Positions 19,091 through 63,450 of a stretch of DNA of 64,000 nt are shown one piece after another (positions within the stretch are counted from its first letter, which is position 1; each line of letters starts with the position of its first letter). The notes beneath the pieces are model-generated. The model was given only the letters and a program-made list of their open reading frames with translations. It did not search any database and was not told the origin of the DNA. A program made the position numbers and the translations under genes. Source of the stretch: Nannobrachium achirus (taxonomy: Eukaryota > Chordata > Actinopteri > Myctophiformes > Myctophidae); NCBI GenBank assembly GCA_963921795.1, contig OY997651.1:49850518-49914517 (forward strand), in the 5' to 3' direction.

Positions 19091-19548
19091 CAGTGGTCTT
19101 CAACGTTTTCAGGCCAAGCAAGGACCCCTTAGTTGAGAGAGATGAATCAGGGACTCCCACAACCTTTTCATAGATTCCATAGTTTCATCGTTTGACAGCA
19201 CGATCATCAGTGTTTTGGATTCATGTCAATTTGTGTTTTCAGATATTTAACCACTTGAACCGTCAATACTTATAAAACTTGTCCTTTCACTCTGCACTTT
19301 GTCTGCTCTTTTTCCCTTCTACACCAAAGCTCTTTGCCAAAAAAATAGCTGATCTAGCGAGGTGGTGTGAGCTTGTAGATCTGCTATTTTTGGCTAAAGT
19401 TTAGTTCTCAGAATATGGACGCTAGGGTTCAAGTGGTTAATATAAAAAAAGGAGAAAAAAGGTTTCTATCGCTCAAAGATTTGGAGGACCCCCTGTAGTA
19501 ACTCGGAGGACCCCCTGGGAGTCCCGAACCCCCTGTTGAAGACCCATG
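19091..19548. mobile_element. hAT MITE with perfect 8-bp TSD CTCTACAC
   Basis: CAGTGGTCTTCAACGTTTTC at the left and TTGAAGACCCATG at the right, flanked by CTCTACAC at 19083-19090 and 19549-19556. Its middle (19337-19394) holds a shortened copy of the dispersed hairpin. Partial copies of the family: 26926-27289 (minus), 55913-56380, 57254-57660 (minus). Confidence 0.9.
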
Positions 19549-21869
19549 CTCTACACAAATGGATTAACCAAAGAATAGGAGCTGTACGTACAACACGTTG
19601 CAACGCAAACCAAGCTTGTAGATTGGCTCAAGTGGTTAACAAAAGTGGCTTCTCATGTTTTAAGCATATTTTGATTATTCCTTTACAATTATTTTTGCCA
19701 TAATAATCTAGACATGTAATTTTCATGTCGTCCCATCTCCACCATCCAATGGTACCCAGTGTGAGAGGTCAACCCAGAGGCATTGCATGCAGGGGTTGAG
19801 CCTCCAGTGATGGAGGTAGAAAAGGTAGAAAATGGGAATATGTATTTTAGTGTTATGGTCAATGATAAAACATTGACAGACTTTGTGTGAAGCTGCTCAT
19901 TTGTAAATTGTTAAACCAAGTTATATCAATACCTTGATTAGTGCAACTGTTATTGGATAGAAAGCAATGTTTATTTGCCATTATGCTGTTTTATTTGGAA
20001 CATATTGGCATTGGAACTGAACTTATGCTGTACATTTTTCTAAGCAAAATGCTGTAGTCAGGGGAAGGGGGTACTCTGCTTCAGAAATCAATATAAGGGG
20101 TAGCCTACTGCAGCCAAAAAGTTTGAGAACCACACAGGATGCATGCATGGACACTCAATTCTTGTATTGTGTCAAGGTATGTTGTTGAACCACCATCGTG
20201 TGAACCCTGGTTTAGGGGTTAGTTTAGAGATGGTTAAGGTCTTTGGTTGAAATGGGTATCTCGTTCATTCTCATCACTATTTTTTAATAGCAAGTATAGT
20301 TATTAACCACCAAATTAACTCTGTTGACTTTGACAACCAACTCATGGCGGATTCACAAAGGCTATCTGGCACCACCTTCTGGCAGAACTGAAAACGGAAT
20401 GGGCGGTTTACAGCACACATACAATGTGCTATTATACAAATGTATGAAAATGCCATTCTATAATAAGCCTTAATCACGTTTGAACGAAAAATAATTAGCA
20501 TATGCATACCTTAGTATGCTTATCATTATTGCAGAACCCAAACAACTTTGGTTTCATGATGCAGTTTGTGATAGCCTATTAAGGTTTTCTTCAGAAACTA
20601 TTTTCAATATTAGCTATTGTAGGCCTACTTCACAAGTGGCAGTGATGTCAGTGTCATTTCTCCTGTTGACTGTTAAGCCCCAATTTACTGTTATACACTG
20701 AAAGATTCGGCTATGTAAATTAACCAAGCTTGCAACATGTTGAGATACTATAATAACCTACTATTAATAGTTATTTTACAAAATGTTACACATTTTCGCT
20801 TATACTGACCAAACAGGGACGCCAGGATGAAGTTGTTAACCTCTTTTTCCCTCTACATATATTATCATCATTTAACAACACAAAGCCCAGAAGGGAGTCT
20901 GGAGGAGACCCTGGCCTGGTGTGAAGTGTGCCCATTTCCAAGATAAAGACGTGAATGCAGGGGGATCTTGAGGAGAGGAAGGGGGCAGGGAGGAAGATGC
21001 ACGGAGATAATGCCTCGTGGATGGAACCCTGCCGTGATAGTGAAAGGGGGAAATGTCTCTGGATTCTCTTCTAGCCATTGTTGAACCTCTTTGGGCTGTC
21101 TTTTCCCCCGATGCTGATGCCCCCTCTCTTTTGTGTTGAGCCGGGGAGAGGGTCCGGTGGGAGTGGTCACTTTTATTTAGGGCCTGAACTGCAACAAGGC
21201 ATTAACTTTAGCCCGCGTCAAACAGCCCCACGCCCCCATCACCATCCACTTTCCACAGCACACAGCCTAAACTAGCACTTTGTATCCGCTAATATTAGGC
21301 GTTTTCATGAAGTGGTTGCACGACTGAACAAACACCCTCTTTGCTTGGCAGAATTACAATTATTATGAGCTGCATATAGTAGTAGTTGTTATTATTAGGA
21401 TATAGCCTAGACAATTAAGACGGTTATTAAGTTCGCTAGTATGGGAGTCCCTTTTCCTTGACAACTGTCTTAGTGGGAGACTCCAACTAAGAAATTAGAT
21501 TTAGAGTGCCACTCCACCAGGACTAAATGATTGTAATCGTATATATATATTATTCATAATATTTAGTAGTTTAGGGGTATTTTTTTATTGTAAAGTATCA
21601 GTAAATCACTTATATTAACATAATATAAATAAATAGCCTAATTTATGCTAAAGCATGAGAGGGCCCTCTATCTAGTATTGGTCAATGCCACCCGAAGCTG
21701 GAAGGCCCTATCATTAAACAGATTACCGATTTAATGTGTTACACCTTGATGAAGAAGTCTATCAAATGGTCACTAAGCACTTGACAACCTTGGCAACTGG
21801 TGGGGGGGAGAGCCCAGTGTTGCCAGATTTTGCGAGAGAAATAAGCAGTCAGGTCCATGGAAAAAAAAT
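19549..21869. other. Intergenic DNA between the two genes, no gene seen
   Basis: Mostly unique AT-rich DNA with several AGGCCTAC words. A GC-richer block at ~20870-21270 has two overlapping minus-strand frames (100 and 68 codons) without a recognisable domain. No element ends recognised. Confidence 0.45.
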
Positions 21870-21965
21870 TGATTGATTGAAGAACTTATTAGAAGTTTGC
21901 ATAGGGAGGGTACAGTTTCATGACAGTACAGTTCACTGGTAGGCCTACAAGGTCAACGCTCAGGT
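21870..21965 (-). mobile_element. Retroposon 3' end with (TTGA)n tail
   Basis: Reverse-complement copy of the family at 9847-9998: TTGATTGATTGAAGAACTTA, then GTACAGTTTCATGACAGTAC and GTTCACTGG. Confidence 0.6.
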
Positions 21966-22143
21966 AAGCACATGCATGGCTTATTTACATTGAGAGCCTT
22001 TTTTTGTTTGTATTAACTTATATAGGCCTACCGGTAATATTGAATGACATGTAGAACACAGTGCTATGCAGAAAAAAGGAGAAGAACAGTTGTAAAAACA
22101 CACACACACACAATGCAAAAACAAATGAATTAGGGGTATGCTA

Positions 22144-22219
22144 TTTGAAAATAGCAGATCTACAAGCTCACTGCAGGTTGTGATGTGAAGCGTTGTGAGC
22201 TGATCTGCTATTTTCAAAA
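22144..22219. repeat. Dispersed hairpin module
   Basis: Left arm TTTGAAAATAGCAGATCTAC, right arm GATCTGCTATTTTCAAA. The right arm has lost TTGTA, so pairing is interrupted. About 620 bp upstream of the her start codon. Confidence 0.8.
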
Positions 22220-22770
22220 ACAGAGTGGAAAAAAATCTTGTGCTATTAAAATGGGTATAATTTTAGAACATATTTGAAACACAAATCTTGTATGGAACGG
22301 GGACCCTGCATGCTAAAACATATGTTCAGATATGCCAGTTCTGCAGACAAATATTAAAGGAATAGTTCACCCCCAAAATGATTGTTTTCCTATTTATTAT
22401 GCCTACTCACGCTATGAGACGTTAATAATAGCCCCCCAAAAAACGCAACTATCACATTTTACAAATTACAACAATAACTATAGGGCCTAGCCTTTTTTTG
22501 TTTGTTTCTTCTTCCTTTTTTAACAAAGGAACAAACCCCAAAGTCGCTTAAAATAAATGCAGACATGGCAACACTGGGAGAGCCGGCCGGGGTCAGAGCA
22601 TCAACATATTGTCATGGTAATAATGTCACTATGAATGATCTGTGCTGTGGGGGCAAGGCTTCGATCGGTGCGTAAAAAGCAATGCACTCATTGCATTTGC
22701 AGCAATGCAGCATGCCACTTCTTGACCACGGCAACTAAAGTTCCCTGAATATAGCCTACGATCTGGAGTC

Positions 22771-22807
22771 AAAGACTGCCGAAAAGCAGAGGATTAAGGC
22801 AGTCTTT
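22771..22807 (+). promoter_or_regulatory. Stem-loop just upstream of the her start codon
   Basis: 10-bp perfect stem AAAGACTGCC / GGCAGTCTTT with a 17-nt loop, 32 nt before the ATG and so probably in the 5' UTR. An AACTAAAGTT word occurs upstream (~22734) and again between hairpin and ATG (~22816). Function unknown. Confidence 0.4.
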
Positions 22808-22839
22808 TTGAGGGGAACTAAAGTTTTGCTGGCTGAAAC

Positions 22840-24206: not shown

Positions 24207-24247
<41 letters not shown>

Positions 24248-24288
24248 CACGCTCATACTCAAGCAGCGCACACACACACGCACGCACG

Positions 24289-24344: not shown

Positions 24345-27300
24345 TATACTCACAGGCACACACATGCAGTGTTTCTAAAACGTTTTTATGTCAAGAACCC
24401 CCAAATGGATAATGTATATGGCAACGGACCGCCACCTGTAAAACATTTTGTGCCAGAGACCCCCCCAGAAGAGAAGATTTGTGTAAAAAATACAAATCGG
24501 GTGGAAACCTTGTATGTCCAAAACCGTTTGTTTTGTATTTATCATTTTTAAAATGATTTAAACTAGAGAAAACAGCCGATCAGCTGTTTTCACTACTTTT
24601 GTGCGATGGCCTTGTGTGATGAAGCAGTGCTTTACTTTGCGAAAAAAATTACAAATTTGAATCTTGGAGATACAAGGTTTAAATTCTGCCCGACAGTGAC
24701 GATATATATTATATATTCAAAAATAGCAAATGTCTGTGCCACGCTGCAAGATGGGATCTTTGAATAGCTGTTCAAATGATTGTAATGCTATGGTAACTAC
24801 CTTTGCTGAGGTCCCCCTGGTACCCCCCATGACCCCTGACCCCACCAACTCAAATAATTAGCACAGTACTCGTAAATCATCAGTCGGTAATAAATTGCTA
24901 ACGCCGGGCGGACGGACATGTTGCATTGCCCTAAAGTTCTGTCTGCTGTCCACCTAAACAGTCGTGTTGTGTGTGTGTTGATGTTTGCAGCAATCTAAAC
25001 TGGAGAAGGCCGATGTGTTGGAGGTGACCGTTCAACACATGGAGGGCCTGCAGAAGGGCATCGGTGCAGGTCAGTTTGCACTCTTTATGGTCCTTTGCTT
25101 GGGTAAATGGTAAATTTATATAGCGCTTTTATCCAAAGAGCTTTACATAGATTGTGCATTACATTCACCCATTCACACACACATTCATACAGCGATGGCG
25201 GAGGTGCACCTGCTTCTAATGATATCAACGCACTTAATGCGAAATATTCACGTGCTTTCTGACTCTTCAATGCAGAAAGTATCCAGGATACTTGGATATT
25301 CAGTATCCAATAACTCACCAATGCAGAGATATTAGTAGTAAAATGTCGACATCTAGTGGTCAACCTCAGAGGAGCGCAAAAATAAAACCTGAGGTGACTC
25401 CCAGCCTCGAACCAGATGCCAAGTGTGCTCTGTTCCCCAGTGTAATGCTCCACGCCACTGACCCCGACGGAGCGGCGCGGTATTGGGCGCCGATGAGCCC
25501 CGTGAGTCGCCACCGAGGCGAGCGCTAGCGAGCCGAGTTGCCGCGACGAGCGGTGCGAACGGCGCCCAATCCCACTCAGCCGCGTTACCGAGTTATGTGC
25601 CGTTATGGACAGAATAGTAAATATTCAGTCCCTCACTATCAACATCTACCCCACTATCCACGTCATAGATATCCACGTCATAGATAAATGCACAAAAAAG
25701 GAGTCACTTCATCCGTTCATTAGCTCAGTCAGTAGAGCACGGATGCAACAAACCCACGGTTTGGGTTCGATTCCCCTGAGGGGACTAATATTCAAGGCGA
25801 GAGATATCGGCGCATGCGTACTTCAAAGTATCCACGGAGGATACTCCTCCGTGGATACCCAGTGCATATTCTCTGCATTCAAACGTCTGAGAAATGGTGA
25901 AAAAGTCGGATTGAATGCGAAGAGAGCAGTCGAAGCCGGTGCGAGGAAACCATGCAAGGCACCAACCTGCTCACCGGGAGCAACTAGGGGTTCAGAGTCT
26001 TGCTCAAGTACTCTTTGACATTAACTCAGGGGGAGCTCGGATTTGAACTGGGAACCCTTCGGGAACCCTTTGTGGTCTAATGACGGTTTCTCTACCCCTG
26101 AGCCACCCCCACACTTGGGTCTTGAGGGCCATGCATCCCTGTTCTGGAGGGGGAAACTTGCCAAATATAGCTGATCTAACAGCTTGTAGATCGGCTATTT
26201 TGGCCAAAGAGATTTAGTAGACAGAGAAAGTACAGTTGCAACTCTCAGGTCCATTTCACTAAGACTAGAGCATGGGCATTTAAAGTTTTTTCAGGCCAAG
26301 GACCACATTTAGCTGAGAGAGAGATGAAGCAGGGACCCCCGCTACATGTGAGAAACGATGTTGTAATGTAGCCTAGATCAACATTTTCATAGATTTAGAA
26401 AGTGTTGTGTCAATGTGCATTTTCAGTCAGACAGTTAACCACTTAAACCCTCAATACTTAGAAACCCAAACCTCAATGCTGAAAATAGCCGTCCTCCAAG
26501 CTCACAGTGAGCTTGTAGATCTGCTATTTTTGGCTAATGGTCCCGTCAAACTTAAATGTCACACACTGAACATATAGCAGATCTACAAGCTCACATGCTC
26601 ATTATTCCTCATTGCCATGGTCTGGATCAGGTGCTCGCAAACCGTTTCATGTTACGGACCACCAAATTGACTTTCAATCCATGGACCCCCCATGAATACT
26701 TTTTTTTACATATATTGTAATCATTTCAATTCAGTTGAGGCTTAGTGAAATGTAACTCCTCCTCCTATGGTTGCGGACCCCTAGGGGTCCCCAGATGCCA
26801 CTTTGAAAACCTCTGGTATAGATGAAATAAGATTAGATATATGATCAAATGAAAATAAAGGAATGGAAGGTAGGGGAGTACATGAGAACATGTCCTCATT
26901 GTTGTCAATATATATGGAAAAAAAGTTACTACAGGGGTTCCTCCAAATCTTTGTGTGTTAGAAACTTTTTTCTTGTTTTTTATATCAAACACTTGAAGCG
27001 CGAGGCGTTGTGAGCTTGTAGATCGGCTATGTTCAGCAATGAGGTCTGGTGTAGAGGGGGAAAAGAGCACAACAAGTACAGAGTGAAAGTGAAGCTTATT
27101 AAGTATTGACGGTTCAAGTGGTTAAATATCTGAAAATACAAATTGACATGAATCCAAAATACACAGATGATTGTGCTGTCAAACGATTAAACTATATAGA
27201 ATCTATGAAAACATTTGTGGCGGTCCCTGCTTCATCTCTCTCTCAACTAAGGGGTCCTTGGCCTGAAAACGTTGAAGACCCCTGGTCTAGTCAAAATAAT

Positions 27301-29177: not shown

Positions 29178-30210
29178 TGTCACGATTATGACATTTTACA
29201 TGAATTGTCACTCAAATAATTCCGATTAACGATTTAATTGTGTTTTTGTCGTTGACAATTACACTTCTGTTTGGCTTTTAGGCTTTGAAGTTGCACATGG
29301 TAGATATGACACATGACCTAAATATACAAAGAAACTACAACATAATAGCGACATGTTTGACAACTTTATACTTAAAAAAGAACATTGATAGTGGAAATAG
29401 CCGATCTACAAGCTCACAACGCGTCACTTCACATTTGTTTTACTTTAACTCATACCTCGCGATCCCCGTAGAGACCGTAGATTTCCCGCTGTACCGCGCT
29501 GCCATGCCCGTAGAGCCCGTAAAGTTTAATTAGCTTTAATCATTATGAAAGGATTAAAAGTATTAGCGCAGATTTTCGCTGATTCTGGCTCTTTAGGCCC
29601 GCCCCCCTAACTGTATCCGGTCATTTCCGGTCTGGACCGGATCCAGCTTTCCGTATCCAGTCTGAGCCTGGGCCATAGTCCCGCCTCCATTGGTTTACAG
29701 TGTAACAGAAAAGAAAGCTACTCGGAGACGGAACGCTCGTTTTTCAATCGGATTTTTGCGTTTGGAAACTTTGATCCAGTCTCTACACGCCTGGATTATG
29801 ATCCCCGCACATATCGTGCGTTTTGTGCGCGAACGTGTCCACGTGTTACCATAGCGCACAGTTGGCTTTTTTCAATGCTTTTTCATGTAAACACTGGCTG
29901 ATAAGCAGAGATACAGCGTGGCAACGGATATGTCTTTTTCAATGGGGTTTTTTGTATTCGAAAGCTTGTCACCGAGTCTACACGTCTACTAGATGAGTCG
30001 CGCACAGATTGTGCACGATGCGTGCGCGTGCCCACGCTAAAAGGTAAGGACAATTTGGCAGCTGCTTACTACAGCTATGTTTAAAATGGCAGAGAAAAAG
30101 TTAAAAGAAAAATATCAAAATTTTTCAACATGTAAAACGATTATGAAAAATGATCGCGATTATGTCAAATAATTGCGATTTGACGATTATGTAATAATTG
30201 TGACAGCTCT
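29178..30210. mobile_element. hAT-type element in the her 3' region, TSD AGATGGAC
   Basis: Starts TGTCACGATTATGACATTTT and ends ATAATTGTGACAGCTCT, flanked by AGATGGAC at 29170-29177 and 30211-30218. It lies 41 bp after the her stop codon. The interior at 29430-30080 is unrelated to the copy at 37587-37973, so something else is nested here, including a fragment of the 8785-9090 MITE. A single hairpin arm remains at 29394-29428. No clear AATAAA is seen between the stop codon and the element. Confidence 0.8.
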
Positions 30211-34600: not shown

Positions 34601-35077
34601 CAGTGGTGGATAATAACAATTGTGAGGTAATTGTACTTTACTTGAGTATTTCCAATTAATTTCCAATACTTCTACTCCACTCCACTACAACATCTCGGAT
34701 CCAAATATTGAACTTTTACTCCACTACATTTATTTGAAAACTTTAGTTACTAGTTACTTTGCAGATATAAATTAGCCTATAATATTATAAAACCTACATT
34801 AACCACATTGATTTAGCCCTATTCTATACCTTGGCTATTTGAAAATAGCCGATCTACAAGCTCACAACGCTTCGCATCGCCACTGTTGTGAGCTTGTAGA
34901 TCTGCTATTTTCAAACATTTTGTAGGCCTACTTTTATACCAATACTTTGGTACTTTTACTCAAGTAGGCCTAAATGTACTAGGCCTATTCAAGATTTAGC
35001 CTACTTCAACATTGTAGTATTGATCATTTTACAACATTTACAACATTACAACATTTGAGTGCATGCTTCCACCACTG
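34601..35077. mobile_element. CAGTGGTGGA-ended MITE with hairpin module
   Basis: Begins CAGTGGTGGATAATAACAAT and ends GCTTCCACCACTG. Interior is rich in GTACTTTTACTCAAGTA words. The middle (34838-34915) is a hairpin with 31-bp arms (one mismatch) from TTTGAAAATAGCMGATCTAC. Other members: 42084-43245, ~54360-54795 and ~59690-60115 (no hairpin). Confidence 0.8.
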
Positions 35078-36247: not shown

Positions 36248-36656
36248 CAGTGGCGTCAGTTCAGAAAAAGCTAAGGTATGGCAACATGACTGGTGTCTTG
36301 CACGCACGCCTTCGCGCACGTGCAAGACACCAGTCATGTTGCCATACCTTAGCAACAGGCATGGTACATTTATTTTAAGAAGTACATTTTATTTTTTCCC
36401 CCCGTTTCTACGGTTTCTTGGGCTGGATATGGCAGCCTGGAATGGTTGTTCAAGTGCAGCTAAACTTGGCATGTTAGTAAACGTGCCACAATTAACAATA
36501 ATGCATTGCACCTGTGCAATATACCATTTTGTCAAGATGGGGAGAATAAAAGTGTGGAGACATTCATGGATTTATATTCATAAGTAACTTTTATTTTCCC
36601 CCTGGACCCAGGGTATGGCAGCTGCATACCCCTGCCATACCCAATTGACGCCCCTG
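36248..36656. mobile_element. hAT-type element, TSD ACTGTATC, with its own palindrome
   Basis: CAGTGGCGTCAGTTCAG at the left and TTGACGCCCCTG at the right, flanked by ACTGTATC at 36240-36247 and 36657-36664. Shares TTTCTACGGTTTCTTGGGCT and GGGTATGGCAGCTGCA with 60159-60661. Instead of the dispersed hairpin it carries a perfect palindrome at 36271-36352. Confidence 0.9.
36271..36352. repeat. Perfect 34-bp-arm palindrome inside a hAT MITE
   Basis: Left arm starts CTAAGGTATGGCAACATGAC; right arm ends with its exact complement at 36352. The loop is 14 nt. The outer part is the element's own sequence, inverted. Confidence 0.95.
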
Positions 36657-37586: not shown

Positions 37587-37973
37587 AGGGCTGTCACAAT
37601 TATTACATAACCGCCTAATCACAGTTATTTGACATAATCACGATTCTTTTTCATAATCGGCATAATCGTGTCCATGTTGAAAAATTTTCATATATATTTT
37701 TCTAAAGTAAAAAAATAGTGGAAATGGCAGATCTACAAGCTCACAACGTTGTGAGCTTGTAGATCGGCTATTTCCACTATCCATGTTCTTTTTTTAAGTA
37801 TAAAGTTGTCAAATATGTCAGTAATTTCTTTATATAGTTAGTGTCATATCTAGCAACTTCAAAGCCTAAAAGCCAAACAGAAATGTAATTGTCAACAACA
37901 AAAATACAATTAAATCGTTAATCGCAATTATTATTATATTATCATGTAAAATGTCATAATAATGACAGCCCTA
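37587..37973. mobile_element. TAGGGCTGTCAC-ended hAT-type MITE with hairpin
   Basis: Ends TAGGGCTGTCACAATTATTA and AATGACAGCCCTA. Hairpin at 37715-37780 with ~33-bp arms from ATAGTGGAAATGGCAGATCT and no separate tip. Related to 29178-30210. Confidence 0.8.
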
Positions 37974-38930: not shown

Positions 38931-39464
38931 AATCACGAAAACAATAGAACACTTTTTAAAGGTCCATGAAACACAAAATCACTTTTTCTATAAATATATA
39001 TTATATCAATGAGTCACTTGTGATAGGGAGCAGTGATATGGTTCAGTTTGCCTATAGCCTTGTGGATTCAGAGCTTTCTGCTGGTCTCTGCAGCTATTTC
39101 TGTTTATTTCCGGTTTCTAGAAGAAAAGAAAACTTTGGCGCCACTCATTAAATATTAGCTATCATTGTTCTAGAGTGCAATGTGACGTAGGCATATCTAA
39201 TTAATATTAACGTTTGTTTAATATAGAGTTGTATCAAGGGGGGGCGTGGTTTCATTCTGCCCTTGTTGTGGCGTCTCGTTGTGTTGTTCAGAGCATAGAC
39301 TGTAGGGCTGTCGCAGTGGGGCACTTGTTGATTAGATTCGGCAACTCCATGTGCTATAACCAGTTAAAATGGGCAAGTATTTTACAAACAAGCTGTCTGA
39401 GCTTTTTTCCATGGACACACTTTCTCCAGCTTTGGACTGTTTACCACGGAACCGAAGAAGAAGG

Positions 39465-39466
<2 letters not shown>

Positions 39467-39534
<68 letters not shown>
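39467..39534. repeat. (GT)n in the left foldback arm
   Basis: About 34 GT units. The complementary tract in the right arm is 39817-39921 and longer. Confidence 0.95.
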
Positions 39535-39543
<9 letters not shown>

Positions 39544-39588
39544 CGTCGTGACAGCGCGCACACACACACACACAACGTCCACACACGA

Positions 39589-39774
39589 AAAATAGCAGAT
39601 CTACAAGCTCACAACGCGTCGCGAAAGTGACTCGTTGTGAGCTTGTATGTCAGCTACGTAGCTATGTAGCCGAGCTAAATAACCGTACGGCTATTAGCTC
39701 GGCTACATAGCTGATATACAAGCTCACAACGTGTCACTTTCGCGATGCATTGTGAGCTTGTAGATCTGCTATTT
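39589..39774. repeat. Two hairpin modules flanking the foldback centre
   Basis: AAAATAGCAGATCTACAAGC at 39589 pairs with GCTTGTAGATCTGCTATTTT ending 39774. Each side also has an internal CGCGTCGCGAAAGTGACTCG-type tip, so the whole is a hairpin of hairpins. Confidence 0.85.
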
Positions 39775-39813
39775 TTCGTGTGTGGACGTTGTGTGTGCGT
39801 GCGCACTGTCACG

Positions 39814-39929
<116 letters not shown>

Positions 39930-40324
39930 CACCGAAAATAGCTATCGGCGATAGCTTAGCGTCCCTTCTTCTTCGGTTCCGTGGTAAACAGTCCAAAGCT
40001 GGAGAAAGTGTGTCCATGGATAAATGCTCAGCCAGCTTCTTTGTAAAATACTTGCCCATTTTAAATGTTTATAGAACATGGAGTTGCCGAATCTTTATAC
40101 TTTTTACACCTCCAATGGCTGGTTTTAAAAATTGTTTCCGAAATGGAAACAGCAACAAGTGCGACAGCTTCGCTCTGTCTCTCTGATAGTTCTAACACAA
40201 TGATGTGCACGCATTACTCCGCCCCTCCCCCCACAACAGCAGATAACCACGCCTACATTTCAGATTTCTTTTCATGTTCTGAAATCCCATAAAACAAAAT
40301 AAAGAGGCGGGGTTTCTTATCCCT

Positions 40325-40654
40325 TTAAAGGAGTTGTTCACCCCCAAAATGACTTTTTTCCTATTGATTAGTCACGCCATGGAGACTATAGAGTTCAATA
40401 ATATATATATACATTTTTTTTTGTCGCATTCCTAAGACAAAAATATGATAACAATAAATGTACCCCCATTTGTTCCGGATGGGGACCCGTTTTGAAACGG
40501 GTCCCCATCCGGAATCAATGGGGGTAAATTTACTCGAATCAAATTTTTGTCTTAGGAATGTGACAAAAACCACAAAATATTATTGAACTCTACTCTCCAT
40601 GGCATGAGTAATCAATAGAAAAAAAGTCATTTTGGGGGTGAACTACTCCTTTAA
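40325..40654. mobile_element. Complete palindromic TTAA MITE (AAAGGAGTTGTTCACC)
   Basis: TTAA at both ends (40325-40328 and 40651-40654). ~160-bp arms with ACCCCCAAAATGACTTTTTT, CCATGGAGACT and TTTTTGTCGCATTCCTAAGA centre on an 18-bp-arm hairpin at 40475-40512 (CCGGATGGGGACCCGTTT). Best-preserved member; others at 22357-22390 (end only), 27360-27475, 31469-31650 and 32673-33242. Confidence 0.9.
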
Positions 40655-42940: not shown

Positions 42941-43023
42941 TGTTTGAAAATAGCAGATCTATAAGCTCACAACGCGTCGCGATGCGACGCGTTGTGAGCC
43001 TGTAGATCAGCTATTTTCAAACA
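42941..43023. repeat. Dispersed hairpin module, ~41-bp arms
   Basis: TGTTTGAAAATAGCAGATCT to the tip GCGTCGCGATGCGACGC and back, few mismatches. Confidence 0.9.
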
Positions 43024-43767: not shown

Positions 43768-44050
43768 CAGTGGTTCTCAAACCTTTTCATTTGAAGGTCC
43801 CCCAAAATGATATGTATTTGGCCACGGACCCCTATCTCAAAATATCTAGTTCCAGGGAGACCACCAAGAAGCAAAATTTGAGTTACAAACGTTCGCTTTG
43901 AAAATACATGTATTCAAAGATTTGCACACATGTTCACGACTTTTTCAAAAATAGCAGATCTACAAGCTCGCAGCGCGGCACTCTCCGCGCTGTGAGCTTG
44001 TATATCTGCTATTTTTCACTGGATAAAACATTCAATAATTCTAGACCTAA
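43768..44050. mobile_element. Charlie-like hAT MITE with hairpin module
   Basis: CAGTGGTTCTCAAACCTTTT at the left. Hairpin at 43946-44018 with GCAGCGCGGCACTC / CCGCGCTG tip. The right end has decayed. Confidence 0.7.
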
Positions 44051-44544: not shown

Positions 44545-44797
44545 TTGTCACTGTCGGGAAGAAACCTTGTATCTCCAATTTTCAAATGTGTACGTCTCTT
44601 CGCAAAGTAAAGCCCTGCTTCATCATACAAGGCTGTCGCACAACAGTAGTGAAAACAGCAGATCTACAAGCACACAACGCCTCGCACCGCGAGGCGTTGT
44701 GTGCTTGTAGATCGGCCAAATGTTCATGATTTAAACTAGCTCGCAGCGCGGCACTCGGACTCGGTGCAGCGCTGCGAGCTTGTATATCTGCTATTCT
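44545..44797. mobile_element. AAACCTTGTAT-family repeat with hairpin, followed by a second hairpin
   Basis: Hairpin 44647-44717 has GCACACAAC on the left and GTTGTGTGC on the right, where most copies have GCTCACAAC/GTTGTGAGC. A second module (44736-44797) with a GCGGCACTCGGACTCGGTGC tip follows. Confidence 0.75.
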
Positions 44798-48829: not shown

Positions 48830-49250
48830 AGTGAAATTACTGAATTTCCTCCTTGGGATAATAAAGGTATCTATCTATCTATTTCTAAAAGGGCCTTTTG
48901 GTGGAAATATCGAAAATGGCAGACCTCCAAGCTCACATCAGGTGTATTCAATTAGCTCAGATGGCATGCTCAGATGCGACGCGTTGTGAGCTTGGAGGTC
49001 GGCTATTTTCGGTGTGTGATACCACACGGAGAGGACAATTCTTTCAACATGAGACGCTGTATTCAAGTTCAGGAGAGTTTGGACAACGCAATCCTCTTGA
49101 ACGCTGCCTTCAGGGTTGACATGGAAAGAGGGCATTTGCATTTCTTTCACCATAGTAAAAAACTTCATTCATGGTCTGGAGAGGGCACTTTTTACAGACA
49201 GATAAAAGGGCAGGGGCTCAAGCCGCCTTTGATGTCTATGCATGCCTGTT
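48830..49250 (+). mobile_element. LINE tail plus CAGGGACGTGC-family MITE with loop-expanded hairpin
   Basis: 48845-48885 (TCCTTGGGATAATAAAGGTA then (TATC)n) resembles a LINE 3' tail. From ~48890 the MITE interior follows, with the hairpin at 48908-49014. The left arm GGCAGACCTCCAAGCTCACA and right arm GACGCGTTGTGAGCTTGGAG are separated by ~50 bp of extra loop. Confidence 0.7.
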
Positions 49251-50047: not shown

Positions 50048-50285
50048 GTTGTCGGGTGGAAACCTTGTATGTCCAAAACCGTTTGTTATGTATTTATCAT
50101 TTTAAAAATGATTTAAACTAGTGAAAACAGCCGATCTACAAGCACACAACGCCTCGCACCACGAGGCGTTGTGTGCTTATAGATCGGCTGTTTTCACTAC
50201 TTTTGTGTATGATGAAGCAGGGCTTTGCTTTGCGAAAAAATTTACAAATTTGAAACTTGGAGATACGAGGTTTCTGCCCTACAAG
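50048..50285. mobile_element. AAACCTTGTAT-family repeat with hairpin
   Basis: GTCGGGTGGAAACCTTGTAT at the left and its near-complement at ~50265-50285. Hairpin 50119-50199 from TAGTGAAAACAGCCGATCTA with a GCACACAAC/GTTGTGTGC pair. Confidence 0.8.
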
Positions 50286-50654: not shown

Positions 50655-51149
50655 CAGTCGTTCTCAACCTGTGGGTCAGGACCCCCAGGGGGGTCACCAA
50701 ATTATTTTAGATGATCAACCTAATGCGCAACATTGTTTTCTCACATAACGGTAAACAAACCAACATAAAGTTTAAGTGTATAGAGGGTATCTGCAATTTT
50801 TTTTTCCCAGGAGCAAAGATTTGAGTTACAAATGTTCGCCTTAAAAATAAGATTTTTCAAAAATAGCAGATCTATACAAGCTCATAGCGCGGCACTCGGT
50901 GGAGAAACAGTATCCAACTCAATCAACTTTAACGTCATTATACATTTCTAAAGTGACAATTTGAGGACTTTTTAGATTTTTGCATTCCAGACATGCTCAC
51001 AACGCCTCGCGTTGTGAGCATGTAGATCTGCTATTTTCACAATAGAACCGTGTTATACAAAAAACTCTTAGTGTTCGTCAGGGTGGGGGGTCCCCAGTTA
51101 AAATATGATTATTTTGGGGGTTGCAGCCTGAAAAGGTTGAGAACCACTG
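50655..51149. mobile_element. hAT element inserted in a hairpin stem, TSD ATCTACAA
   Basis: CAGTCGTTCTCAACCTGTGG at the left and AGGTTGAGAACCACTG at the right, flanked by ATCTACAA at 50647-50654 and 51150-51157. The TSD is part of the hairpin stem word GATCTACAAGCTC, and the host hairpin resumes after it (GCTCACATGCCACGCTGC; right arm 51280-51312). The hAT itself carries a second, split hairpin (50856-50900 and 50990-51040). Confidence 0.85.
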
Positions 51150-52382: not shown

Positions 52383-52566
52383 CTGGACGACATAACACTG
52401 TTCCACCCGAGAGAGAGAGTGAGAGAGAAAACAGAGACAGACAGAGGTTGAGGAGATGAAAGGTGCAGGAAAGGGAGTGATAGGAATCTAACAGGGCCTT
52501 CAGATCTTTACACAGCCTTTGACTCCCCTCAGGGGCGTCACAAGGGGGAGAAAAGTGGGACTGAGG

Positions 52567-52785
52567 ACTCACAGCGCGGCACAGAGTGCTTGTAGATCTG
52601 CTATTTTTGAAAAGTCGTGAAAATGTGTGCACATCTTTGAATATAGTATTTGTTAATCGAACATTTGTAACTCAAACTTTGCTTCTGGGGGGGTCCCTGG
52701 AACTAAATATTTTGAGATGGGTGTCCGTGGCCAAATACATATAATTTTGGGGGTCGTTCACAAGAAAAAGTTTGAGCACCACTGA
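52567..52785 (-). mobile_element. Charlie-like hAT fragment with truncated hairpin
   Basis: ACTCACAGCGCGGCACAGAG, then GCTTGTAGATCTGCTATTTT, then GGGGGGGTCCCTGGAACTAA and AAGTTTGAGCACCACTG. Confidence 0.65.
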
Positions 52786-53269
52786 CAAAAAAAACAAAAA
52801 GCATTTTTTTCTTTTTTAGCTTGTAGATTTGCTATTTTAAAGCACAAAATAATGCGTAATAATGCGTTCCCAGTCTAAATGGGTTAAACCCCCTCCCCCT
52901 ATATGAAGAACATTCATGGGGGCCCGCAGTGAATCCTTGTACCCAGGGCCCAGAATTTGGTGTGACACCCCTGACTCCCCTCCCTAGTATTTAACCACTT
53001 TCAACCCCTGTTTTGGGCATGTCATTATAGGCAGACATGTCCCAAAACACATCTGCACTGGGTCTGACTGAGTTAACATATCGTTGTTGTCGGGCAGAAA
53101 CCTTGTATCTCCATATTCAATCTTTTCCCCCGTAAATGACCGGCCCTACTTGATCAGACTACAGCGTCAAAGTAAGCGAGCTCAAAACGCATCGCAAAGC
53201 TACGTGTCATAATGTCGAGATTCGATGTATCCCCTGAGCAAGCAAGCAGGGTCCAGCCCAATGGTAAAA

Positions 53270-53665
53270 AACAGCACTTGCGCACAGGCACGTGCACACA
53301 TAGACATCAAAGGGGGATTGAGCCCCTGCCCTTTCATCCATGTGTAAAAAGTACCCTCCAGACGATGAATGCAGTTTTCACTATGTGAAAGAAATGCAAA
53401 AGCCCTCTTTCCATGCAATAACTAAATGCAGCATTCAAGAGAATTGCCTTGTCCAAACTCTCCTGAACTTGAATGCAGCATCTTAGATTTGCCCTCTCTA
53501 TGTAGAAATCCATGTCATTACGCCTCATCTCTAGCATTGACTTGATAATGCGTAATTCAGTGTGGTATCAAGTACTGAAAATAGACGACCTCCAAGCTCA
53601 CAACGCGTTGCAGCAAGGTCTACTATTTTCGACATTTCCACCAACATTCTCTGCACGTCCCTGCT
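53270..53665 (-). mobile_element. CAGGGACGTGC-family MITE, reverse
   Basis: CAGGCACGTGCACACATAGA at the left and TTCTCTGCACGTCCCTG at the right. Degraded hairpin 53577-53631 (GACGACCTCCAAGCTCACAA, AAGGTCTACTATTTTC). Confidence 0.75.
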
Positions 53666-54867: not shown

Positions 54868-55255
54868 CAGGGACGTGCAGAGAATGTTAGAGAGGCAGGG
54901 GCTGACATTTTGGCAGGGACTTTTGGCCGAAATATCGAAAATAGCCGACCTTCAAGCTCACAACGCGTCGCGCTGCGACGCGTTGTGAGCTTGGAGGTCG
55001 GCTGTTTTCGGTGCTTGATTTCTTCACAGAGAGGGCAATTCCTTCAACATGAGATGCTGCATTCAAGTTCAGGAGAGTTTAGACAAGTCATTTCTCTTGA
55101 ATGCTGCCTTCGGGTGTGGCATGGAAAGAGGGGCATTTGCATTTCTTTCACCATAGTGAAAACTGCATTCATGGTCTGGAGAGGGCACTTTTTTTTACAG
55201 CCATACAAGGGCAGGGGCTCAAGCCCCCTTTGATGTCTATGTGTGCACGTGCCTG
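54868..55255 (+). mobile_element. CAGGGACGTGC-family MITE, complete, near-perfect TSD
   Basis: CAGGGACGTGCAGAGAATGT at the left and GTGTGCACGTGCCTG at the right, flanked by CTTGGTGT (54860-54867) and CTTAGTGT (55256-55263), which fits an 8-bp hAT-type duplication. Hairpin 54936-55011 has the GACCTYCAAGCTC stem and GCGTCGCGCTGCGACGC tip. Confidence 0.85.
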
Positions 55256-55912: not shown

Positions 55913-56380
55913 GGGTCTTCAACGTTTTCAGGCCAAGGGCCGTTAGTTGAGAGAGAGATGAAGCAGGGAGCCCGCAAAACCTGTTCATAGATTCCATATA
56001 GTTTCATTGTTTGACAGCACAATGGTTAGTGTATTTTGGATTCGTGTCAATTTTGTTTTCAGATACGTATTTAACCACTTGAATCGTCAATTCATAACTT
56101 CACATTTCACTCTGTACTTATTCTGTTCTTTTCCCCCTCTACACCAAACGTCTTTGCCGAAAATAGCCGATCTACAAGCTCACAACGCCTCGCACTGCAA
56201 GGCGTTGTGAGCTTGTAGATCGGCTATTTTTGGCTAAAGTTCTCAGAATATGGACGCTAGGATTCAAGTGGTTAATATAAAAAAGGAGAAAAAGGTTTTT
56301 ATCACACAAATATTTGGAGGACCCCTGTAGTAACTCTGAGGACCCCCTACCGTACCCCTAGGGGGGTTGGTGGAAGAGAG
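55913..56380 (+). mobile_element. CAGGGGTCTTCAACG hAT MITE with hairpin
   Basis: CAGGGGTCTTCAACGTTTTC at 55913; interior as at 19091-19548. Hairpin 56156-56234 has two mismatches in 38-bp arms and a CCTCGC tip. The right border is degraded. Confidence 0.78.
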
Positions 56381-58309: not shown

Positions 58310-59215
58310 CCCATACAGTTTACAGTTACAGTTTACAGTTTAGGCATTTAGCAGACGCTTTTAATCCAAAGCGACTTACAATAAGCAGATAAAGACATCA
58401 CAATAATAAACAAGATAATATGTCAGTACATCAACAGCAATATAACAAATGCAAATGAATATCTATCTAGAAAACAAAAATAATCAGTCAAGAAAAAAAG
58501 GTTCTAAAAAACCTAAAAACAATTGCTAACTAGCTTCATGTATGGTCATTGAGTGTTTCAGTAGTGCTAAGGGTTTAGGTGGGGTCTGAAAAGGTGAGTC
58601 TTCAGTCCACGACGAAAGCTAGCGAGTGAGTCCGTTGTTTTAAGTAGGACAGGGAGTTTATTCCACAGCTTGGGGGCCAGGAGGGCAAACTGTCTCGGAC
58701 AAGTGGATTTTTGTCCTGGGGCTTTTAGCGAGGGTTCTGTCAGCATCCCTGTGTTGGCTGATCTAAGTGAACAGGTGGGGGTGTAGGTGTTGATCAGGTT
58801 TTGGAGGTATGGAGGAGCCATACCTTTGGCTGCTTTGAAGGTCAGCATCAGTGTTTTGTATTCAGTGTGGGCCGCAACCGGGAGCCAGTGGAGGCTGCGG
58901 AGAAGGGGAGAGACATGTGAGAACTTAGGCTGGTTGAAGACCAGTCGTGCCGCAGCATTTTGGATCAGTTGGAGAGGTTTAAGTGCACATGCTGGGAGAC
59001 CAGTAAGGAGAGAGTTACATACCCTAGGTGGGGTTGGCAAAAGGTTGGTTTCTGTGTGGAGTTTGCATGTTCTCCCCATGCCCGCCTGATGGAGGGTAAA
59101 GGAACAGTTTGGAATAACATGTTCCTGTCCAACCGGGGAATCTCCCCTTCTGTCAGGTGAACATTGAAGGATGCATGAGGCCAGTCCGCCCAGGATTACA
59201 TTAGACAATTGGCAC
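58310..59215 (-). mobile_element. 5'-truncated CR1/L2-like LINE end
   Basis: The minus-strand frame ending at 58567 reads NSLLTGLPACALKPLQLIQN, LLRSLHWLPVAAHTEYKTL, APPYLQNLINTYTPTCSLRS and LAPKLWNKLPVLLKTTDSLA, a typical C-terminal RT segment. The 3' region contains GCATTTAGCAGACGCTTTTA / AAGCGACTTACA, a common fish repeat. The N-terminal end of the frame (after ~59020) is fused to an unrelated repeat (GTGTGGAGTTTGCATGTTCT). Confidence 0.8.
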
Positions 59216-59319
59216 TGGGTGAAAAAATGGGTTCCCTAATCTCTTCAAATGTAAGAGGAAAAGCTTTTTTGGTTTCTGCCCGGCAGCAGCGATAGGTTTT
59301 GCATGGCTGTGTCGGAGCC

Positions 59320-59515
59320 ATGGCATTGGTCCGAAGGTTTATTAGTCAGAAGGTTCATTATTCCGAAGGTTCTTCAGTCCGAATTTGTTAAGAATACTAT
59401 GCCTAACTCTAACCCTAACCCTAACCCTAACCTTAACCTCAGTAACCCTAACTAAATTCGGACTAATGAACCTTCGGACTAATGAACCATCGGACTTATG
59501 GGCAGTCCCCGGCTG
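59320..59515. repeat. Inverted repeat enclosing telomere-like (CCCTAA)n
   Basis: TCCGAAGGTTTATTAGTC on the left pairs with GACTAATGAACCTTCGGA on the right. Between them, 59402-59440 holds four to five CTAACC units (ACCCTAACCCTAACCCTAAC). Confidence 0.75.
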
Positions 59516-59689
59516 TGTTTACAGTCAGGTCAGACCACAGTGTCTCAGTGCTGACAGACTGGCTGCTCCAGATCGTCATTGATTCTTTGAGTCACCTTGC
59601 CAAGCTGCTTCATGTGCTTGAGTGGTGGATTACAGCTCCTAATGTAAAGAGACATTTGACCAAAAAGCTCAGATGATCATTTTATGTAC

Positions 59690-60115
59690 GGCACTTAATT
59701 GCAATGTTATGGCACTTTTACATTAAGTATGTCCATTTTCAATAATTTATACTCCTACTCTCTACTTACTACATCTCAGAGGGGAAAGTATTGTACTTCC
59801 TTACTCCACTACAATTATTAGAAAACTTCGCAGTGAAAGGCCTTTTCACTTTGCCCTATTATAGAACCACCACAAGGCCACAATAACATACCTGACCTGG
59901 TGGAGACCTGTGCTCAGAAGAGAACTGCTTCTAGTTGGCAATTATCTTGTTGTTGTTGAAAGATTCTGACACATTTTGAAAACATAATAAAGAAGAAATA
60001 GAGAAAGAAAGTGCAATGGAACATTCGGTATAATCAGTACTTTTACTTTTGGCACTTTATATATTTTGATGCTAACATTTTACACTTTTACTGAAGTAAA
60101 ATGTAATGTGAACAC
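59690..60115. mobile_element. GTAAAAGTA-family MITE without hairpin
   Basis: TACTCCACTACAATTATTAG and TACTTTTACTTTTGGCACTT match 42084-43245 and 54360-54795 in reverse, but the centre has other sequence and no hairpin. Confidence 0.6.
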
Positions 60116-60158
60116 GGGCCTTTTGCTTGTTTACAGAGTCGTTTTTGAGCGGTGCTCC

Positions 60159-60661
60159 CAGTGGCGTCAGTTCAGCAAAAGCTAGGGTATGGCAAAGTCC
60201 TCATGGAAAAGAGGCATCCTTACATTTTGTATAACACGGTTCTATTGTGAAAATAGCAGATCTACTTGCTCACAACGCCTCGCGCTGCGAGGCGTTGTGA
60301 GCATGTAGATCGGCTATTTTCACAATGTCTGAAAAAAACTAGTATTTTCAGTTTTTTACCCAGGTTTCTACGGTTTCTTGGGCTGGATATGGCAGCCTGG
60401 AACAGTTGTTCAAGTGCAGCTAAACTTAGCATGTTAGTAAACGTGCCACCATTTTGTCAAGATGAGAATAATACAAGTGTGGAGAATATAATTATTATAC
60501 CTTGTTAAAGTGACCATTTTGTTAAAATTTGCATTTGTAGTTATTTTACTGTAATTTAACAACATAATAACCAGTTTATATTTAAAAGTAACTTTTATTT
60601 TCCCTCCTGAACCCAGGGTATGGCAGCTGCAAACCCCTGCCATACCCAAATGACGCCCCTG
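60159..60661. mobile_element. hAT-type element, TSD GGTGCTCC, with hairpin
   Basis: CAGTGGCGTCAGTTCAGC at the left and AATGACGCCCCTG at the right, flanked by perfect GGTGCTCC at 60151-60158 and 60662-60669. The hairpin at 60244-60326 has 40-bp arms with two mismatches, tip CCTCGCGCTGCGAGG. Confidence 0.92.
60244..60326. repeat. Dispersed hairpin module, longest near-perfect copy
   Basis: From ATTGTGAAAATAGCAGATCT to its complement. Loop is GCT. Confidence 0.93.
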
Positions 60662-60706
60662 GGTGCTCCTGGAAGGAGCTAAGCTCCAACATCTGGCTTT
60701 GGTGGG

Positions 60707-61305
60707 AGAAATATGTAACAAAAATAGGCTAAGGTGTTCACTTCCGTCCGAAAGCGTGAAAATTTGCACCTAGGGGTATTTTTGTGTGCTGGATTCAAAA
60801 AATGACAGATCCAAGCACTTTTCCCATGGGATCTGGTGGTTCTAATTCACTTACCATACAGGGAAAAAAGACCCCCCCAAATAATCTTCTTTAAGTAGCA
60901 TGTGAGGAGTCTATCTAGGCTAGGGGTTTTTCATGATTCTGAGTCCATTGCAAGCATTTACCTGGGCTAAAAATGGACCCTACAAAACTGTGAAAAGTGA
61001 TGACTCATCACTAAACCCTCATACTTAACCATAGTTTTGTGGGGTCCATTTCTAGCCCAAGGAATGTTTTTCGTGCAAAACAAATGCTTGCAATGCATTC
61101 TTAAAGAAGCTATTTAAAGAAGATTTTTTTGGGGGATCTTTTTTTCCCTGTATGGTAAGTGAATTAGAGCCACCAGATCCCATGTGAAAAGTGCTTGGAT
61201 CCGTCCATTTTTGAATTCAGCGCACAAAAATACCTCTAGGTGCAAATCTTCGCGCTTTCTGCCGGAAGTGAACACCTTTTTCACATATTTCTCCCACTAC
61301 TTTGT
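60707..61305. mobile_element. Foldback MITE, ~290-bp arms
   Basis: Arms share GTGGGAGAAATATGT, GGTGTTCACTTCC, GGATCTGGTGG(C)TCTAATTC, ACTTACCATACAGGGAAAAA and CTAAAAATGGACCC. The centre is AGTGATGACTCATCACT near 61003. No TSD recognised. Confidence 0.85.
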
Positions 61306-61423
61306 CCGGGCTCTGAAGCATGGTCTACATCTTGGCTCAAAGTGCTCAAAGTTTGCTGTACGCCCAGGGTCACATGGGCCCAGCTTCGTGGGACACTTAA
61401 TGACATTAACTCATAAATAGGGC

Positions 61424-61755
61424 TGGCTTCCAATTTCGGGCTTTTGATCTGGTCGGGAGTGGATGGCGTCATACCTCATTCTGTAGTCAAAACGGACTAC
61501 ACTTTAGCAGAAAACACCAAACCGGAAACCGTTTTAACCCCTACTTGTGCATGCGCTAAGCCGCTAACTACTTGCGCGTGTGCTAACTGGGTTGAAACTG
61601 TTTCTGGTTTGGTGTTTCCTGCCAAAGTGTAGTCCGTTTTGAATACAAAATGACATAGGATGCCATCCGGTCCAGACTGGATCAAACCACCTGTTTAGTA
61701 AACAAAGACCAGGCTTACTCCCAGGCAGAAAGCCTTGTGACGCGAGGTTAGGAGT
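61424..61755. mobile_element. Palindromic (foldback) MITE, copy 2
   Basis: Opposite orientation to 8785-9090. CAAAACGGACTACACTTTAG and AAAGTGTAGTCCGTTTTGAA arms. The centre is diverged around ACTTGTGCATGCGC. Outer AGGCTT / AAGCCT words. Confidence 0.8.
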
Positions 61756-62114
61756 CTCCTACCAGAGAGTCCGCCGGTCATCACATTATTGACTCGGGAA
61801 TGCGACACAAACAGAAGAAGGCACACCGGGGAGACAAAAATAAAAAAGTAGAAATAAGTTAAATTCATGGTTTAGCCCCTTTCATGGGTTACGTTATTGA
61901 TAGTGCACACGGGTTCAGACACGTCCCCGGCGCTATAAAGCGTCTCGCGCCGACTCGTTGGACTGAAGAGGTAATGAAAGTTTTCATTTGAGCCGGGATG
62001 TCTTTAGGGGGGAGACTGAGCCTATTCCATTCACTGTTAAATCTCAAATACCTGGAACGCGCCCGAGTCGCGTTAGATTTTAACCACTTTAACCATTATT
62101 TTATGCTTTAACTA
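61756..62114. other. Intergenic DNA, no gene seen
   Basis: 61760-61990 is apparently unique. 62035-62090 (AAATACCTGGAACGCGCCCG, CGCGTTAGATTTTAACCACT) is the reverse of ~51665-51715, part of the repeat that surrounds both near-identical hairpins. Confidence 0.4.
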
Positions 62115-62192
62115 TTGAAAAATAGCAGATATACAAGCTCACAGCGCGGCACCGAGTGCCGCGCTTGCGAGCTTGTAGATCTGCTATTTTTG
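62115..62192. repeat. Hairpin module with GCGGCACCGAGTGCCGC tip
   Basis: TTGAAAAATAGCAGATATAC on the left. The arm mismatches fall at the same stem positions as in 51566-51643 read in reverse. Confidence 0.92.
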
Positions 62193-62262
62193 AAAAAAAC
62201 GTGAAAATGTGTGCAAGTCTTTGAATATCTTTGACACGATCTTTGACCCGACTTCTAAATCC

Positions 62263-62737
62263 TAGGGTTGTTCGATGTGGCCTAAAAATAAAATCTCGAT
62301 TTATTTCTCAGAAAAGTCGATTTTCGATTCCGATTTCGATTTTTTTTGGTAAAAGAATAATACATTGTTTCAACTATGTTGTTTTCATTTAAAAAATGCA
62401 AGGACATGATTTTTTTTTTTATTATTGTTTTATTTTCTAAATGTTTTATATAGCCAAATAGCAAAATCTAATGTGGTGAGCCCTGCCCAGTCTGACGTGC
62501 ACTGCACGTGCATCAAATAAATTACACATCAGAGATAAAGTAGTATTAATTTGGTGTCGGACCTTGTCGTCCTGCTTTAGGAGGACCGGCTGTGCACTTT
62601 TTGCCCCGTGCAAGGCTCCAATGAGTAAGAATTACCCTAATTAAAGTGAAAATCGATTTTACGATTTCTTATTTTTTAAATCGTCCAAAGGAAAAAATCC
62701 CGATTTCGATTAAAAATCGATTAATCGGAAAACCCTA
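62263..62737. mobile_element. hAT-type MITE with perfect TSD CTAAATCC
   Basis: TAGGGTTGTTCGATGTGG at the left and AATCGGAAAACCCTA at the right, flanked by CTAAATCC at 62255-62262 and 62738-62745. Interior rich in AAATCGATTTT words. Nested in Charlie-like repeat sequence. Confidence 0.9.
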
Positions 62738-62754
62738 CTAAATCCTTCTTCTAA

Positions 62755-63000
62755 ATCATGTTGTTCTCAAACTTTTTCATGTCAAGGACCCCCACAATTA
62801 CAGGTATTTGGCCGCGGACCCCCATCTCAAAATATGTTGTTCCAGGGACCACCCAGAAGCAAATATTTGAGTTACAAATGTTCGCTTTTAAATAGATATA
62901 TTCAAAGACTTGCAAAGAAATATCATGATTTTTCAAAAATAGCAGATCTACAAGCTTGCAGCGCTGTGAGCTTGTATATCTGCTATTTTTCAATTGTTAA
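62755..63000. mobile_element. Charlie-like hAT MITE with hairpin
   Basis: GTTGTTCTCAAACTTTTTCA at the left, GGACCCCCATCTC blocks, and hairpin 62931-62992 (short GCAGCGCTG tip). Confidence 0.75.
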
Positions 63001-63119
63001 AGCGGTCAATAATCCTAGGCCTAAATGGGTTAAATACAGCCCAGTCAAATGAATTTAAAAAGCCAAGCATAGCTCATAGCCCCGAGGCTTCAATTAATAA
63101 CCATAGACTATTAATAGTG

Positions 63120-63450
63120 TCGTGGTTCTCAAACGTTTTCGTGTCAAGGACCCCCAAAATTGATGTGTATTTGGCAGCCGACCCCCTATCTGAAAAGGTT
63201 TTTTACAAGGGACCCCCAAAGGTTTGTGTTCAAAATGTTTGCTTAAATTCAAAGATTTTCACCCGTTTTCAAGATTTTTCAAAACATTGCAGATGTACTA
63301 GCTCATGACCTTGTACATCTGCTATCTTTTTAATAAGTATAAAATATTGTTTAAGTGGTCAAAGTGAGTGTGATGATATATTAACTACATTTGCTTAGGA
63401 CCGCCTGGTTTGTACTGGTCCCCTGACCCCACTTTGAGAACCAATGCTCT
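63120..63450. mobile_element. Charlie-like hAT MITE with diverged hairpin
   Basis: GTGGTTCTCAAACGTTTTCG at the left and CCCCACTTTGAGAACCA at the right. Hairpin 63286-63326 reads GCAGATGTAC on the left and GTACATCTGC on the right, where the family has GATCTAC/GTAGATC. Confidence 0.75.

Follow-up and report, generated by a model that had tools for sequence, protein, structure and literature searches.

The window analyzed here, a stretch of 64,000 nucleotides from the fish Nannobrachium achirus (G000:C14:49850518-49914517, within a genome of 1,658,514,493 bases in 564 contigs), is studded with copies of a hairpin, a DNA palindrome of 60-90 bases that lies inside many families of cut-and-paste transposons in this one fish genome. 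Its consensus consists roughly of GAAAATAGCMGATCTACAAGCTCACAACGCSTCGC, a loop of some three bases, and the same arm in reverse complement; ten hairpins in the window have arms of 28-42 nt that are 92-97% complementary, and the other window hairpins are 78-93% complementary. An nhmmer arm profile trained on 13 palindromes of the window, which therefore partly trains its own profile, matches it 97 times at E ≤ 10, with 66 of these matches scoring at least 12 bits, versus three matches (top score 4.9 bits) in the reversed window. Arm matches of at least 9 bits group into 43 clusters, bearing out an earlier note on this DNA that had counted over 40 recurrences; each of the 47 starts listed there has an arm match within about 45 bases, three of them weak (47439, 6.6 bits; 52267, 9.8 bits; 63286, 6.7 bits), and two clusters (43575 and 51148) were absent from that list.

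The pattern also recurs genome-wide. The 20-base pattern AATAGCAGATCTACAAGCTC, with at most two mismatches, occurs 306,815 times in forward and 306,195 times in reverse orientation, giving 613,010 arm matches in 1.66 Gb as opposed to 0 and 5 for the reversed pattern, so that a chance artefact can be rejected; the palindromic core (35 places, at most one mismatch) is found 46,112 times versus 0 in the control, a count identical on each strand because a palindromic pattern marks the same places. The density in the window, 40 clusters of at least 12 bits in 64 kb, is above average: 20 arbitrary stretches of 10 kb each, taken 5 Mb into contigs C1-C20, contain 78 clusters in 200 kb, and three of them hold none. 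A 23-base arm pattern, searched for exactly in viral_contigs and genome_contigs, is matched in neither.

Flanking sequences were compared over a working set made of the window and 88 loci (331 kb; 237 hairpins, 147 of them two-armed), 68 of which were chosen for holding a hairpin and 20 of which are arbitrary; rates are taken only from the 264 kb of the window and the 20 arbitrary stretches, and the host labels A to M were assigned in the present analysis. Intact hAT-like elements were defined by an exact 8-bp target-site duplication (TSD), a 12-bp terminal inverted repeat (TIR) with at most two mismatches and CAG/TAG-type ends, and 21 were hand-selected from 44 raw matches; the 23 excluded rows comprise 14 satellite-like ones (L027), five at L018 7421, and L012 6703, L019 7204, L020 587 and window 31147, these last four without CAG/TAG at both ends. 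A block-shuffled control sample yields no element match of any kind. The hairpin is carried by 12 of the 21 intact elements, which represent nine TIR types, in agreement with the claim of the earlier note that host families differ in their ends.

With their 8-bp TSDs and short TIRs, the hosts look like short hAT elements, and three further host types, J (AGGGATGGGACGATA), L (GGGCATTAACGA) and M (CAGTGTTGAATTCGTCGAC), were recognized elsewhere by eye. The foldback element at 39416-40012 has an 8-bp duplication and lacks a CAG end. Flanks of host E occur twice within CAGGGGTTCCCA-ended elements and, at 50121, within a CAGGGACGTGC-ended element with an imperfect duplication, so that E is not a clean family. 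The relatives at 36248-36656, 16379-16790 and 59690-60115, previously described as lacking the hairpin, do lack it and have the ends of hosts F1, B and C, respectively, but they are not empty versions of these hosts, their interiors being different.

The presence of what is probably one hairpin lineage in hosts with different ends is supported by the comparison of cores and flanks. Core consensuses of eight hosts share 0.75-0.98 identity (0.86-0.98 excluding A), whereas the flanks of different hosts are mostly unrelated and mostly unalignable. A comparison of near and far flanks is largely uninformative, one far cluster of 115 having chained many hosts. Variants are nevertheless host-specific: the closest match to a hairpin belongs to its own host in 0.79 of 75 cases (shuffled mean 0.29, maximum 0.45) and, with A excluded, in 0.61 of 37 (shuffled mean 0.17, maximum 0.43). 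In addition, the paired stem continues into host-specific sequence, true flank pairs of eight hosts matching at 46 of 56 positions against a mean of 22.0 over 40,320 re-pairings, only one of which, the true pairing included, reaches 46/56.

Pairing is preserved within the stem itself. In 16 hand-picked hairpins, 92.5% of the stem cells are paired and 18 of 40 stem pairs are altered on both sides, compared with 9.5 in shuffles, none of 500 being as high; one internal stem position is unpaired in 10 of the 16, and in 38 of 135 hairpins one arm has A there and the other has C. Of nine host groups, six show slightly higher arm identity within copies than across copies and three show no difference, significance being reached in none (permutation p 0.07-0.67), and ongoing arm-to-arm conversion within single copies is not supported. 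Since arms within a copy have no significant extra likeness, the paired changes seem to date from the host founders; two of 36 listed host E strings look, by eye, altered on both arms. The both-arm changes of the founders may reflect either selection for pairing or patchwise copying between arms.

Comparison of the hosts supports the view that the hairpin has moved together with neighbouring sequence, clearly so for F1/F2 and F2/L and moderately for B/J. F1 (ends CAGTGGCGTC) and F2 (ends CAGTGGTTCTC) share one side of the hairpin: outward from the stem, F1 copies at L030, L035 and L037 are identical to the F2 copy at L046 in 38 of 39 bases, and the F1 copy of the window, an intact element with its TSD, matches F2 in 33 of 33 bases on the same side. 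On the opposite side, only 9-14 columns match, mostly stem, before the sequences diverge. In L042 and L045 (host L), the roughly 207 bases that lead up to the hairpin match F2 (183/225 and 184/226 columns), the sequence beyond it is their own, and the two arms are of different types by consensus; L031 is a mix of L, F2 (154/183 columns) and, by eye, an M-like piece. The match of B and J beside the hairpin is moderate (33/43 columns; z 4.2), and in a single instance, L026 3954-4023, a B half and a J half meet, by eye, at the hairpin. From the F1/F2, F2/L and B/J matches it follows that transfers have ragged ends around a constant hairpin.

Host E, the one host counted, reveals what becomes of the hairpin where it is missing. 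Its exact flanks are separated by 60-90 bases in 8,428 cases and by 0-30 bases in 300, these being the two ranges counted. In 97 of 100 listed short forms, four or more exact arm bases survive at one edge at least, and in 67 they do so at both edges; of the remaining three, one is an arm form whose edges have changed and two have three bases left. The 100 listed forms amount to 79 distinct ones, the commonest of which (10) has GATC in the middle, and some resemble templated inserts by eye. Hairpin-less copies of host E are thus mostly deletions inside the hairpin, and the junction comparison proposed in the earlier note yields, among the forms listed, deletions with arm remnants but no clean empty junctions. 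Host G has 19 short forms.

The best reading of these sequences, with roughly an even chance of being right, is that the hairpin is an internal module of short hAT transposons, no ends of its own having been found, and that it spreads by capture into their interior followed by amplification through transposition. A host family would be founded with one hairpin variant and copied by hAT transposition, of which the 8-bp duplications are observed and the enzyme is presumed. Rarely, a break in the hairpin or close to it, or a fork stalled there, would be filled by template switching into another hAT element, bringing the hairpin and ragged neighbouring sequence into a new host; the products of this step are observed, and its break, switching and direction are conjectural. 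Palindromes break and stall replication, and breaks at the hairpin would also produce the deletions observed within it in host E, breakage being their presumed cause; the hairpin itself may raise the rate of its capture. Taken further, the hairpin might be a selfish DNA structure, with neither ends nor enzyme, whose breaks or fork stalls provoke template-switch repair into other hAT families and whose copies are then multiplied by their transposases, in other words a transposon parasite that spreads as a repair hazard. This stronger version is tentative and somewhat unlikely.

Capture of this kind resembles that of Pack-TIR elements. According to the Pack-TIR study, TIR elements capture fillers by template switching at breaks, some of them induced by secondary structure, some of the filled products are then amplified by transposition, and hAT is the commonest superfamily, with 208 elements as against 115 TcMariner in the two main superfamilies (PMC8277862). 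The likeness to this Pack-TIR or FoSTeST process is that hAT elements gain a foreign interior through template switching at breaks and that some multiply; the difference is that the captures are there not derived from transposable elements and are mostly single-copy, whereas here one recurrent palindrome is combined with pieces of other hAT elements (PMC8277862). F1 has the hallmark of the Pack-TIR set, a foreign piece that lies within intact TIRs and became multicopy, in the form of the hairpin and the 33-39 flank bases in common with F2. The present data fit a gap-filling model in which hAT elements are donors and recipients and the hairpin is the recurrent content.

Several observations weigh against capture followed by amplification. 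Only two strong transfers and one moderate transfer were identified, most host pairs share no flank past the hairpin, the tail similarity of A, B and C is weak (z 2.2-3.1), and the L026 3954 chimera could be the result of plain recombination between neighbours. In the 264 kb, nine of the 21 intact hAT-like elements lack the hairpin. The both-side stem changes of the founders, which coexist with a persisting internal mismatch, are not explained by capture. Genome-wide, 151 hybrids combine the GCTC and GCAC arm types versus about 94 expected, an excess of about 1.6-fold; the expectation derives from 286 control changes, 33 of the 100 listed being transversions in a tally by eye. Exchange within the hairpin is, on this comparison of arm types, rare, and frequent internal recombination finds no backing.

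A further point against the same reading is L089, which belongs to a group of four loci retrieved for their hAT transposase domain; hairpins flank the domain on both sides, making L089 a possible autonomous hairpin carrier. hAT dimerisation domains are plentiful in this genome (1,653 candidates, of which 150 were scored). Among eight loci with a hAT domain or frame, L090-L092 and L094-L096 are without hairpin, and the one arm of L093 lies outside the 2.8 kb common to L093 and L096; element ends, as searched, were not found in L089, L090 or L093-L096. L096 was considered as the autonomous partner of B and rejected, its B-type end belonging to a truncated neighbour. Frames of 622-633 aa with a hAT domain and no stops lie at G000:C3:7271760, C18:4830142, C13:57533457, C4:64555660 and C7:17271865, which points to hAT elements that were active until recently or to host genes of hAT origin.

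Passive hitch-hiking, by which hAT interiors mix constantly and the hairpin came to lie in the winners by chance, with no causal role, is an unlikely account. Interiors are swapped without the hairpin too, as in the three relatives that have the ends of F1, B and C, and both the nine hairpin-free intact elements and hybrid cores little above the mutational control are compatible with chance mixing. It accords less well with the recurrence of the same palindrome in nine TIR types (a small sample), with stem pairing kept through two-sided changes, or with the many distinct deletions inside the hairpin, which suggest frequent breakage, the hairpin being the sole segment counted.

An independent palindromic mini-transposon similar to Made1, with two terminal repeats and its own transposase, that inserted into several hAT families and then hitch-hiked, is improbable. 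Its appeal lies in size and shape, which fit Made1 with its two 37-bp repeats separated by 6 bp (PMC1784062), the ten window hairpins with arms of 28-42 nt being near-perfect palindromes of about 80 bp; furthermore, hairpins are alike across hosts while their flanks are mostly unlike, and, by eye, TA symmetrically bounds the palindrome in G, E and F1. TA bounds are absent, again by eye, in A, B, C, J and M, and instead of the fixed ends that all copies of a Made1-type element have in common, the palindrome has ends that vary by host, as the stem extension indicates.

Solo copies are scarce. In the 264 kb, a repeated flank adjoins 63 of the 68 two-armed hairpins (seven of these on a single side), which in itself is no proof that hairpin and repeat belong together. 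Of the five others, four look by eye like flanks already known, and L024 2803-2863 is the sole candidate. Beside the inner sides of 89 single arms in the 331 kb, no common interior was found: the largest inner-side group, of 10 and seen in part, contains more hairpin copies, and in 35 of the 89 a known outward flank lies on the inner side, no more than 150 bases away, as though the second arm had been lost by deletion. Together with the host E short forms, mostly deletions that retain arm bases, these results do not support an independently mobile mini-element. The "mobile or recombining module" of the earlier note therefore survives in that the hairpin reached hosts with different ends through ragged transfers, but not as regards independent jumping or frequent internal recombination.

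Selection at the RNA level, whereby a transcribed hairpin would be processed to small RNAs or otherwise used and hence kept paired in each host, is very improbable. The fold of one example (60244-60326) is very stable, at -66.4 kcal/mol (z -15.0), and the excess of stem pairs changed on both sides is as expected of such selection; copying between arms would yield the same pattern, a 3-base loop is atypical of miRNA precursors, and an Rfam search of the hairpins returned no family at gathering score, only assorted weak matches. The least credible alternative, a hairpin inherited from a common hAT ancestor while the remainder diverged, draws on the hAT-like appearance of hosts with clear ends and on the hairpins either side of the L089 domain, but would require extreme conservation of cores up to 98% alike amid ends and flanks that mostly cannot be aligned, whereas arms chosen via their flanks are only somewhat better conserved than the flanks (a comparison biased by local alignment and ascertainment) and no hairpin occurs in L090-L092 or in the 2.8 kb common to L093 and L096.

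Some known systems resemble the capture and amplification proposed here in part. The Angel elements in Tol2 are, by description, a palindromic piece of a few hundred bases within a fish hAT that is also found elsewhere, and fungal mitochondrial hairpin elements are small palindromes scattered widely, in organelles and not within nuclear transposons. Made1, linked with mir-548, is likewise a near-perfect palindrome of about 80 bp in many copies; it is itself a miniature inverted-repeat transposable element (MITE) with Hsmar terminal repeats, whereas here neither own ends nor clear solos were found (PMC1784062). The palindromic MITEs of Atlantic cod are fish hAT derivatives with many internal inverted repeats and proposed promoters of rearrangement; compared by description, they differ in being 167-169-bp units of one hAT family at inversion breakpoints, as opposed to the many families seen here (PMC12368964). 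The open-licence literature searched yielded no described case of one palindrome that several hundred thousand arms spread over many hAT families, in line with the earlier statement that no described system fits; the ingredients, Pack-TIR capture and palindromic MITEs, are known, and their combination appears to be new.

Table 1. Hairpins and associated elements in the window (positions counted from its first base)
Positions	Feature	Host	Strand	Details
19091-19548	hAT element	B		strong arm 19357-19391 and decayed second arm; TSD CTCTACAC
21815-22576	hAT-like element CAGTGTTGCCAG			TSD GGAGAGCC; hairpin 22144-22218
24497-24705	host copy, inner hairpin arms lost	E	-	
26480-26595	hairpin 26480-26530 and additional arm 26572-26595			host-B-related flank nearby
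29391-29427	single arm	G (flank)	+	
34838-34915	complete hairpin, GTAAAAGTA-type element	C		
36248-36656	relative with a different foldback in place of the hairpin	F1 (relative)		TSD ACTGTATC
37719-37776	complete hairpin	G (GGGCTGTCAC)		
39416-40012	foldback element			TSD TCCATGGA; 14-bp TIR CACACTTTCTCCAG; hairpins 39588-39656, 39707-39776
42941-43023	complete hairpin	C		
43944-44018	complete hairpin	A		CAGTGGTTCTCAAAC end near 43770, by eye
44649-44724	complete hairpin, GCACAC arm type	E		
48910-49010	hairpin with enlarged loop	D (flanks)		
50115-50203	complete hairpin	E (flanks; AAACCTTGTAT repeats)		95% complementary
50655-51149	hAT-like element CAGTSGTTCTCA	F2		arms at 50856 and 50991-51041; TSD ATCTACAA
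51566-51644	complete hairpin	A		
52530-52973	hAT-like element CAGGGGCGTCAC			TSD ACTCCCCT; two single arms, 52586 and 52818
53285-53663	hAT-like element CAGGSACGTGCA	D		TSD CTTGCGCA; arm 53576-53611
54935-55010	complete hairpin, GACCT arm type	D		element 54868-55255, TSD with one mismatch
56153-56237	complete hairpin, CAGGGGTCTTCAAC hAT element	B		42-nt arms, 93% complementary; arms 44/41 bits
57398-57468	complete hairpin	B		CAGGGGTCTTCAA end upstream, by eye
60159-60661	hAT-like element CAGTGGCGTCAG	F1		TSD GGTGCTCC; hairpin 60244-60326
62115-62194	complete hairpin	A		
62932-62993	complete but shortened hairpin	A		

Among the elements of Table 1, the F2 copy has a TSD that equals hairpin-arm sequence and may thus have inserted into another hairpin, and at 36270-36353 an F1-type element has a foldback made from its own end sequence where its relative has the hairpin. 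Outside the window, a 25-bp tandem array at L004 617-740 has a unit that includes half of a hairpin arm (AGCTTGTAGATCTGC), as if an arm had turned satellite, and L026 2568-3572 and 5617-6621 form a tandem duplication of about 3 kb with several hairpins and the same flanks. The window also contains a second, unrelated palindrome (CAATGTACAAATGGAACCAAATGGACC and its complement) at 974-1033 and 6055-6114, with sub-threshold Rfam matches to mir-133; long palindromes at 8828-9052 (107-nt arms, 86% complementary) and 40418-40569 (75-nt arms, 88%) with no match to the arm profile; and a UnaL2 LINE (long interspersed nuclear element) at 58338-58392.

With one arm match per about 2.7 kb, the hairpin, the only repeat counted, is very abundant and spans transposon families with different ends. 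One palindrome can thus connect repeat families that have nothing else in common, a possible source of confusion in repeat libraries. If the hairpin does promote its own capture, this genome would be a natural experiment in which new non-autonomous transposons arise through the action of a DNA structure.

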